A stretch of 64,000 nt of DNA from Hydrogenophaga taeniospiralis (GTDB lineage Bacteria > Pseudomonadota > Gammaproteobacteria > Burkholderiales > Burkholderiaceae_C), in the NCBI RefSeq assembly GCF_020510445.1, contig NZ_JAHBAG010000001.1, forward strand, positions 2,952,501 to 3,016,500. Reading direction: 5' to 3'. Below, piece after piece: positions 14,463 to 16,183 of the stretch. The notes beneath the pieces are model-generated. The model saw only the letters and a program-made list of their open reading frames with translations, searched no databases and was not told the DNA's origin. How positions within the stretch are numbered: position 1 is the stretch's first letter; each line of letters opens with the position of its first letter. The translations under genes and the position numbers were made by a program.

Positions 14463-15017
14463 TCAGTGCAGCGTGCGGGGGCCCGGTGGCGTGTCGTCCA
14501 TGGTGCTGTCGGCCGGACCCTCGGTGTCCACCTGCATGCGGAAGAAGCCGGTGCCCAGCGTGCCGCGGCCCACTTCGCTGATCTGTGCCTCGCGCACGGT
14601 GTGCACCTTGAGCGTGATGCGCAGCGCGATGCCCGCCAGCGGGTGGTTGCCGTCCAGCACCACGTGTTCGGGGTAGATGTCGCTCACGAAATACAAGCGG
14701 TCTTGGGGCGCGGCCGGGTTGCAACCCGGGGGCAGACCCTCGAAGCCCATGCCTTCTTCGAGTTCCTCGGGGAACAGGTGGCGCGGTTCGAGGAACAGCA
14801 GGCGGTCGTCGTAGTCGCCGAAAGCGTTCTGGGGTTCCAGGTGCAGTTCCACCGTGTCACCGGCCGCATGGCCGAGCAGGGCTTCTTCGATTTTTGCGAG
14901 CAGGTCGCGCCCGCCCACCAGGAATTCAACGGGTTCGTCGAGCACGTCCAGCTCTTCACCCAGCGTGTCTTTGAGCGTCCAGGTCAGCGCCACGACGCAT
15001 TGTTCGGTGATTTTCAT
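14463..15017 (-). CDS. slyD: FKBP-type peptidyl-prolyl cis-trans isomerase, SlyD type
   Basis: A 184-residue FKBP with an insert-in-flap chaperone domain. The FKBP part includes LDVLDEPVEFLVG, IEEALLGHAAGDT and the returning strand GNHPLAGIALRITLKV; the flap insert contains FPEELEEGMGFEG. Proteins of this type isomerise Xaa-Pro bonds and act as folding chaperones; the His-rich metal-binding tail of E. coli SlyD is absent here. The start at ATG 15017 is chosen because the region upstream is occupied by the divergent roxA promoter and start; the two ATG codons are 14 bp apart. It converges on dut. Confidence 0.9.
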   Translation of the reverse strand: MKITEQCVVALTWTLKDTLGEELDVLDEPVEFLVGGRDLLAKIEEALLGHAAGDTVELHLEPQNAFGDYDDRLLFLEPRHLFPEELEEGMGFEGLPPGCNPAAPQDRLYFVSDIYPEHVVLDGNHPLAGIALRITLKVHTVREAQISEVGRGTLGTGFFRMQVDTEGPADSTMDDTPPGPRTLH

Positions 15018-15018
15018 C

Positions 15019-15030
15019 GGACAATTGTCC
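15019..15030. promoter_or_regulatory. 12-bp palindrome giving -10-like hexamers on both strands between slyD and roxA
   Basis: GGACAATTGTCC is a perfect palindrome that fills nearly all of the 14 bp between two divergent ATG codons. GACAAT lies 6 nt before each ATG, the spacing expected if transcription starts on the A of the start codon in both directions. No Shine-Dalgarno sequence is possible in this space. Confidence 0.55.
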
Positions 15031-15031
15031 C

Positions 15032-16183
15032 ATGACACAAGCCCCACACTCCAGCGCTGCAGAGACGCCCGACACCCCCCGCACCATGCTCGGTGGTCTT
15101 TCCCCCGCGCAGTTCATGCGCCGCTACTGGCAGAAAAAGCCCCTGCTGATTCGCAACGCCTTCCCCGGTTTCACCCCGTTCGTGAACCGGCAGGCGCTGT
15201 TTGCCATGGCGGCCGACGAGGTCGTGGAGTCGCGGATGATCGTGCACAAGGCCTCGGGCTGGACGCTGCGGCACGGTCCGTTCGCCCGCACGGTCTTCCC
15301 GCCGCTCAAGCAGCCGCGCTGGACGCTGTTGGTGCAGGGGGTGGACCTGCACCTGGACACCGGGCGCGAGCTGCTGGAGCGTTTCCGCTTTGTGCCCGAC
15401 GCCCGGCTGGACGACCTGATGATCTCCTGGGCCAGCGACGGTGGCGGTGTCGGGCCCCATTTCGACAGCTACGACGTGTTCCTGCTCCAGGCCAGCGGCC
15501 AGCGCCACTGGCGCATCGGCCGCCAGAAAGACCTGTCGCTCGAACCGGACGTGCCACTGAAGATCCTCAGCCACTTCGAGCCCGAAGAAGAGCACCTGCT
15601 CAACCCCGGCGACATGCTCTACCTGCCGCCGCGCTGGGCGCACGACGGCGTGGCCGTGGGCGACGACTGCATGACCTACTCCATCGGTTTTCGCGTGCCG
15701 CAGCGCGGCGGTCTCGCGGGTGAGCTGTTGCAGCGCATGGCCGACGAGTTCGACGACACCACGCTCTACCGGGACCCGGACCAGGCCGCGACCGACACAC
15801 CGGCCGCCATGCCTCCGGCCCTGGAGGCCTTTGCCGCCGACGCGCTGCAGCGGCTGCTGGCCGAGCGCCAGTCGCTGGCCTGCGCGCTGGGCGAGGTCAT
15901 GACCGAGCCCAAACCCAAGGTCTGGTTCGAAGAGCCGCAGCACGACTGGGTGCCTGGTGCGCTGACGCTGGACCGGCGCACCCGCATGATGTACGACGCG
16001 CGCCATGTGTTCATCAACGGCGAGGGCTTTCGTGCCGCTGGGGCCGACGCCCGGCTGATGCGCAGCCTGGCCGACACGCGCTGCCTGGGCGCGCGGCAGG
16101 TGGCGCTGGCCAGCCCCGCCGCGCTGGCGCTGCTGCAGGACTGGTTTGAGGCCGGCTGGCTGCACTGCGCACCGACAGCCTGA
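15032..16183 (+). CDS. roxA: Ribosomal protein uL16 3-hydroxylase (JmjC/cupin oxygenase, YcfD/RoxA family)
   Basis: A 383-residue Fe(II)/2-oxoglutarate oxygenase of the ribosomal-oxygenase family, which in E. coli hydroxylates an Arg of ribosomal protein uL16. The metal-binding HxD is in GGVGPHFDSYDVFLLQ and the second His is in LPPRWAHDGVAVG; QRHWRIG and NPGDMLYLPP are typical. The C-terminal third is the winged-helix/dimerisation region of the family. Length matches YcfD. It diverges from slyD through a 14-bp gap and would have no 5' leader if the -10-like hexamer is real. The next gene follows after 27 nt. Confidence 0.92.
   Translation: MTQAPHSSAAETPDTPRTMLGGLSPAQFMRRYWQKKPLLIRNAFPGFTPFVNRQALFAMAADEVVESRMIVHKASGWTLRHGPFARTVFPPLKQPRWTLLVQGVDLHLDTGRELLERFRFVPDARLDDLMISWASDGGGVGPHFDSYDVFLLQASGQRHWRIGRQKDLSLEPDVPLKILSHFEPEEEHLLNPGDMLYLPPRWAHDGVAVGDDCMTYSIGFRVPQRGGLAGELLQRMADEFDDTTLYRDPDQAATDTPAAMPPALEAFAADALQRLLAERQSLACALGEVMTEPKPKVWFEEPQHDWVPGALTLDRRTRMMYDARHVFINGEGFRAAGADARLMRSLADTRCLGARQVALASPAALALLQDWFEAGWLHCAPTA

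Follow-up and report, generated by a model that had tools for sequence, protein, structure and literature searches.

Results

Divergent slyD and roxA genes lie 14 bp apart in H. taeniospiralis

The analyzed window, a stretch of 64,000 nucleotides from Hydrogenophaga taeniospiralis, contains a slyD gene and a roxA gene in divergent orientation (Table 1). Between the CAT that marks the slyD start on the minus strand (15015-15017) and the ATG of roxA (15032-15034) lie only 14 bp, which read CGGACAATTGTCCC on the plus strand. This spacer contains GGACAATTGTCC, a perfect palindrome of 12 bp, and the hexamer GACAAT is found 6 nt from the ATG on each strand, with an overlap of 2 bp between the two hexamers. 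The initial annotation had described this geometry, and the gap, the palindrome and the position of both hexamers were all confirmed in the sequence.

Table 1. Features of the slyD-roxA locus, with positions counted from the first base of the window
Feature	Position	Strand	Basis
slyD CDS, SlyD-like FKBP prolyl isomerase/chaperone	14463..15017	-	start-codon complement at 15015-15017; sequence and homology
roxA CDS, ycfD-type ribosomal protein uL16 arginine hydroxylase	15032..16183	+	sequence, domains, homology
Intergenic spacer, 14 bp	15018..15031	.	sequence; 14 bp in 50/50 genus sequences
Palindrome GGACAATTGTCC, 12 bp	15019..15030	.	perfect in H. taeniospiralis; the widely kept part is the xAxAATTxTx core only
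Predicted roxA -10 hexamer GACAAT, 6 nt before ATG	15020..15025	+	sequence, genus and family comparison
Predicted slyD -10 hexamer GACAAT, 6 nt before ATG	15024..15029	-	sequence, family comparison; 15024-15025 common to the roxA hexamer
Predicted TGn extension of the slyD -10	15030..15032	-	T(-15) lies opposite the A in the ATG of roxA
Predicted first base of the roxA transcript, the A of its ATG	15032	+	inferred from the -10 position
Predicted first base of the slyD transcript, the A of its ATG or the preceding G	15017	-	inferred from the -10 position

Judged by homology, the first gene is probably slyD, and the name roxA holds for the second. The best PDB matches of the first protein are SlyD proteins (8g01, E 1e-15, and 2k8i); it reaches 63 bits against an NCBIfam equivalog cut-off of 174 bits and gave no Pfam match at E 0.001. 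Its nearest named relatives belong to Hydrogenophaga, the closest being from H. taeniospiralis with 97% SlyD identity. The second protein matches the structure of the uL16 arginine hydroxylase 4ccl (E 4e-48), as well as 4lit and 4nub, and combines a JmjC_2 domain (PF08007, 126.5 bits) with a ROXA-like_wH domain (PF20514, 39.3 bits), the domain composition of RoxA/YcfD. The host genome contains a second SlyD-like gene with 37% identity (G000:C1:4503894-4504343), and at least two SlyD matches were found in 60 of 67 genus genomes.

For both genes, alternative starts were considered. The slyD frame stays open back to a GTG at 15047 inside roxA, and automatic annotation may therefore start slyD 10 codons too early; we dropped this start because the SlyD homology begins at MKI. 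A downstream roxA start at ATG 15086 was dropped as a general start on the evidence of related loci: roxA could be parsed in 64 of 81 rows (17 not parsed), and 14 of these 64 loci offer no in-frame ATG, GTG or TTG ahead of the conserved motif other than the ATG at 14 bp from slyD.

Signals upstream of the start codons in the host

In the host locus, no Shine-Dalgarno word (GGAG, GAGG or AGGA) precedes slyD or roxA. GACAAT agrees with TATAAT in four of six positions: the first base is G, so that the T at -12 is absent, and the A at -11 and the final T are kept. Leaderless (TA-led) genes are described as carrying a -10-like signal some 12 bp ahead of their start codon, which replaces the Shine-Dalgarno sequence (PMC3160421, in extract). 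With GACAAT 6 nt from the ATG and an A at -11, a signal at this distance is present on both strands. A conventional promoter was not detected, as a scan of positions 14800-15300 gave no -35/-10 pair; shuffled sequences also gave 0.0, which makes this a weak test.

We counted A.AAT upstream of 312 genes in a 464-kb sample of the host, for which gene calling was crude (ATG open reading frames of at least 150 codons with high GC3, taken from the upstream-most ATG). The motif lies 6 nt before the ATG in seven genes and 7 nt before it in four; at the remaining spacings between 2 and 44 nt, counts were 0-3. Because of this peak at 6-7 nt, comprising eleven genes, the host seems to use leaderless-type starts elsewhere as well. 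Two of the eleven are slyD and roxA, and the nine further genes (sample L270-L289 plus the window) are candidates for leaderless mRNAs. Leaderless mRNAs have been mapped in relatives within the Burkholderiales. Transcription starts mapped in B. cenocepacia coincide exactly with the start codon in 72 genes and fall within 10 nt in 42 genes, 24 of these transcripts being tRNAs (PMC4603805, in extract). In Cupriavidus metallidurans, leaderless transcripts are given as 4.67% of the primary starts (PMC7563307, in extract).

The compact arrangement is conserved within the genus

The expression CAT-N3-ANAATTNT-N3-ATG occurs once in the host genome and is present in 62 of the 67 genus genomes searched. 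In all 62 carriers of a slyD orthologue the pattern lies at slyD, and this placement, as well as that of the 21 family matches mentioned below, was judged by eye from coordinates. The five genomes without the pattern (G025, G029, G042, G046 and G062) have as their sole SlyD match a distant paralogue of 36-41% identity, and one genome, G030, has two pattern loci at slyD. A reversed pattern used as a control was found in none of the 67 genomes. Among 150 genomes of the family, 28 contain the pattern, with 21 cases at slyD and seven elsewhere, the latter corresponding to a background of about 0.05 per genome. The exact 12-mer palindrome is found at one place in the 5.28-Mb host genome, and near-copies with up to two mismatches were not enriched in the window (three matches vs 1.94 expected). 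Going by these pattern searches, the slyD-roxA arrangement is not due to chance.

The seven sites of the compact two-way pattern away from slyD (G195:C1:97757, G116:C61:2344, G185:C1:955302, G096:C18:296443, G157:C1:1568993, G184:C20:26187 and G110:C9:50682) are either chance matches or other compact divergent pairs.

The initial annotation had suggested checking whether the 14-bp distance is fixed in relatives, and indeed the spacer measures 14 bp in all 50 distinct genus sequences, which stem from 50 of the 62 genomes. In the same sequences, slyD begins at the usual start in 34 cases and is extended by four codons in eight and by eight codons in another eight. In all 50, the core and the roxA ATG are separated by 3 nt, even with variable codons following the ATG. 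The distance between start codon and hexamer is thus held while the adjoining protein ends change. Such constant spacing would be unnecessary for an ordinary 5' leader, but necessary for a transcript beginning at the ATG, and fits leaderless mRNAs.

Nine of the 14 spacer columns are invariant and the most variable one reaches 1.21 bits, with the restriction that CAT, A.AATT.T and ATG were fixed by the search pattern, which all 50 sequences had. The variable columns are bases one to three of the spacer, base three of the slyD hexamer and the penultimate base of the spacer. In the flanks, the entropy amounts to 0.9-1.8 bits towards roxA and, past TTTCAT, to 0.5-1.6 bits towards slyD, the latter raised by the inserted slyD codons in 16 of the 50 rows.

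Three arrangements of the two genes occur in the family

Extended -10 promoters are characterized by a TG at -15/-14. We surveyed this signal in the family set of 150 genomes, 140 of which had a SlyD match at E 1e-30; two without a tblastn match were left out and 138 were readable. For slyD, every in-frame ATG within 15 codons upstream was considered as a start, and for roxA every in-frame ATG or GTG. A TGn-extended -10 (TGnRAnnAT) was found 6-8 nt before an in-frame slyD ATG in 115 of the 138 genomes, with a peak at 6-7 nt (6 nt in 90, 7 nt in 15 and 8 nt in 10 genomes). In two genomes the spacing is 16-18 nt, and in 21 the expression was not found. Only one of 414 control windows matched, and the position of the slyD signal is preserved even in genomes with a SlyD identity as low as roughly 45-50%.

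This range bears on another explanation of the conserved block, namely coding constraint together with common ancestry and no promoter at all. Relatedness alone keeps sequences alike, and the first two slyD codons are coding. However, the flanks vary much more than the non-coding spacer in the same 50 genus sequences, and the slyD signal stays in place across most of the family and to the low SlyD identities just given. We consider this explanation highly improbable.

By the position of the shared core, the 138 genomes fall into three classes. In the compact class (36 genomes), the roxA ATG is located exactly 3 nt from the core in 27, 5-7 nt from it in seven, and at 3 nt with an unverified frame in the remaining two. 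The displaced class (35 genomes) keeps the core beside slyD; roxA starts further off in 32, which would have leadered roxA transcripts, and its start was not found in three. The separate class (67 genomes) has no shared core at slyD. A roxA start candidate is available for 55 of these genomes, and 43 of the 55 show A.AAT 5-8 nt upstream (19 at 6 nt, 17 at 7 nt).

Both genes have their own leaderless-type -10 in 34 of the 138 genomes, with 24-105 bp between the start codons in 33 of them and 363 bp in one. In view of these separate elements, the compact form may stem from the merging of two leaderless-type promoters. On a tree of RoxA N-termini, comprising 121 of the 138 family sequences (17 with fewer than 50 usable residues parsed were dropped), the presence or absence of the core requires 16 changes, compared with a mean of 39.7 after shuffling; this tree is poorly resolved, with 56 of its 118 inner branches open.

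The symmetry of the element decays outside the -10 positions

What is retained of the palindrome is the core xAxAATTxTx, supplying each strand with a -10. The full set of six pairs was counted in 6 of 36 compact and in 0 of 35 displaced sequences; the search expression itself had set three of these pairs. Since the slyD expression also fixes the TG, this dinucleotide was re-counted with the position left free, a count limited to the 71 core-bearing sequences. On the slyD side, 34 of the 36 compact and 34 of the 35 displaced sequences have TG at -15/-14, as in an extended -10 promoter, but on the roxA side only 7 of 36 and 1 of 35. In the compact form, T(-15) of the slyD promoter complements the A of the roxA ATG. 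As the displaced form retains the TG without the roxA ATG, the TG is kept for the predicted slyD promoter. The symmetry is best read, from these comparisons, as a consequence of AATT belonging to both -10 elements. Two points of the initial annotation need amending: the perfect palindrome is not maintained among the relatives, and the element, called symmetric there, differs between its two directions in strength signals.

The palindrome could also represent an operator for a dimeric regulator of both genes, with the promoters located elsewhere. Its perfect symmetry in H. taeniospiralis would suit such a role, but the loss of symmetry outside the -10 positions in the compact and displaced sequences does not, the single exact copy in the genome gives no sign of a regulon, and an operator would have no need of a fixed distance to both ATGs. 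We rejected this reading on account of the decaying symmetry and the single copy, and assign it very little probability.

In the displaced class (e.g., L131, L134 and L136), a CAAAC-like stretch precedes TGCGACAATT on the slyD strand; where this stretch corresponds to -18, 97% of 34 sequences have A. The stretch could be the AT-rich -18 contact that, according to PMC12825309, compensates for a missing -35.

Ribosome-binding words are scarce and roxA often carries a -10-like signal of its own

Words of the type GGAG, GAGG or AGGA are scarce upstream of both genes. They precede roxA in 10 of 36 genomes of the compact, 4 of 32 of the displaced and 1 of 54 of the separate class; for slyD, the corresponding counts are 3 of 36, 0 of 35 and 1 of 67. 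In many genera, an AGGAG is located beside the slyD start (CATAGGAGAATTGTCGCAG), namely in 19 of 35 displaced and 4 of 36 compact sequences, and the displaced cases are unexplained as a ribosome site for either gene. Since the word is commoner where roxA is displaced and cannot use it, AGGAG is probably not retained for ribosome binding at roxA, and we do not favor this assignment.

Outside the family, roxA was followed at the level of the order. At E 1e-40 it was detected in 97 of 120 genomes, 94 of these being non-family members, and 39 of the 94 upstream regions were taken; five had no start candidate, leaving 34. A -10 hexamer with at least four of six matches lies 5-8 nt before the start in 18 of the 34, at a background of 0.9 per spacing for 12-41 nt. 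TATAAT itself accounts for 13 of the 18 signals, and 10 of the 18 are found at exactly 6 nt. In the other 16 regions, no -10-like hexamer was detected at 5-8 nt. A divergent SlyD-like neighbor gene is present in 13 of the 39 loci, with a weak match in one more. Because of these hexamers at 5-8 nt, the leaderless look of roxA is, on sequence grounds, not confined to the compact arrangement. The arrangement is common, but not universal, given the 21 family genomes without a slyD signal and the 16 of 34 outgroup regions without a roxA signal.

These data allow us to weigh the reading in which the core is a promoter for slyD only, its symmetry in the roxA direction is incidental, and roxA is transcribed with an ordinary leader from a promoter inside slyD. 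The slyD signals are the stronger ones and are retained when roxA moves away, as shown by the TGn in nearly all displaced sequences; likewise, a Shine-Dalgarno-like word lies upstream of roxA in the 10 compact relatives listed above. On the other hand, AGGAG is commonest where it is useless to roxA, and no -35/-10 pair was found nearby, weak as that test is. The roxA ATG keeps its 3-nt distance to the core throughout the genus despite variable following codons. Moreover, A.AAT precedes roxA at 5-8 nt in most genomes without a shared core, and the signal is often TATAAT in other families, so that roxA looks leaderless independently of slyD. Taken together, we regard a slyD-only promoter as unlikely.

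Discussion

In our view, the 14-bp spacer is quite probably a bidirectional promoter of the sigma-70 type, in which two overlapping -10 elements would give rise to two leaderless mRNAs. The observations behind this reading are the sequence and spacing of the element, its conservation, the asymmetry of the TGn and the scarcity of Shine-Dalgarno sites. Two -10 hexamers on opposite strands would overlap tail to tail by 2 bp within the core xAxAATTxTx, and RNA polymerase would bind in either orientation, but presumably not in both at once. Transcription is predicted to begin at, or within one nucleotide of, the A of each ATG, which would put the two starts 15 bp apart, and both mRNAs would be leaderless and translated by leaderless initiation. 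On the slyD side, the promoter would depend on a TGn-extended -10 without a recognizable -35, and slyD is likely the stronger direction; roxA, which usually has no TGn, is predicted to be the weaker one. Two leaderless mRNAs from one bidirectional promoter had already been proposed in the initial annotation. The position of the -10 elements, the missing Shine-Dalgarno words and the 14-bp spacing favor this part. Counting against the reading are the four-of-six match of GACAAT, the family and outgroup genomes without the slyD or roxA signal, the 32 genomes with a displaced roxA, the seven compact genomes with the roxA ATG at 5-7 nt, the Shine-Dalgarno-like words before roxA in 10 compact genomes and the uncommon start spacing.

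Bidirectional promoters are described as having reciprocally overlapping -10 elements and divergent starts 7-25 bp apart, with 18 bp as the commonest distance (PMC10268837, in extract); spacings of 10 and 23 bp are also common (PMC12825309, in extract). The slyD-roxA element resembles the promoters in these extracts in its overlapping -10 elements on opposite strands, its divergent genes and predicted starts within the range of 7-25 bp: the hexamers share positions 15024-15025, and 62 of the 67 genomes of the genus contain the core. Its predicted start spacing of 15 bp departs from the common values of 18, 10 and 23 bp, which allow small variations and are a preference and not a requirement. 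A further difference is that both transcripts are predicted to be leaderless and that one TGn uses a base paired with the other start codon.

With the TA-led leaderless genes, as far as the extract of PMC3160421 describes them, the locus shares the -10-like signal about 12 bp upstream and the lack of a Shine-Dalgarno sequence. Here, however, two divergent genes would use one element, and the hexamer begins with G instead of T; of the consensus TANNNT, the host keeps the A and the T, and TATAAT is found at 5-8 nt in 13 of the 34 outgroup roxA regions.

The slyD side resembles extended -10 promoters in the TGn directly before the -10 and in the lack of a recognizable -35, and differs in that, in the compact form, the T of the TGn is paired with the initial base in the neighbor's start codon. 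Bidirectional promoters and leaderless genes are both known, and the predicted combination of the two is what distinguishes this locus. A limited literature search found no description of the slyD-roxA pair.

A more far-reaching proposal is possible, but we put it forward only tentatively. The element may represent a tail-to-tail class of bidirectional promoters, with starts 15 bp apart and the A of each ATG paired with the opposite -15. Within the family, two older leaderless promoters that were once separate may have fused into this element, which may have been frozen since, coupling slyD and roxA by competition for the polymerase.

If the preferred reading of a shared bidirectional promoter is true, an 8-bp core serving two leaderless mRNAs would come near the lower size limit of a promoter that drives two protein-coding genes. 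Promoter merging could be studied in the family as a natural series, from separate promoters through a shared core with displaced roxA to the fully merged form. A chaperone and a ribosome-modifying enzyme would also be linked with leaderless translation and with competition over a single polymerase.
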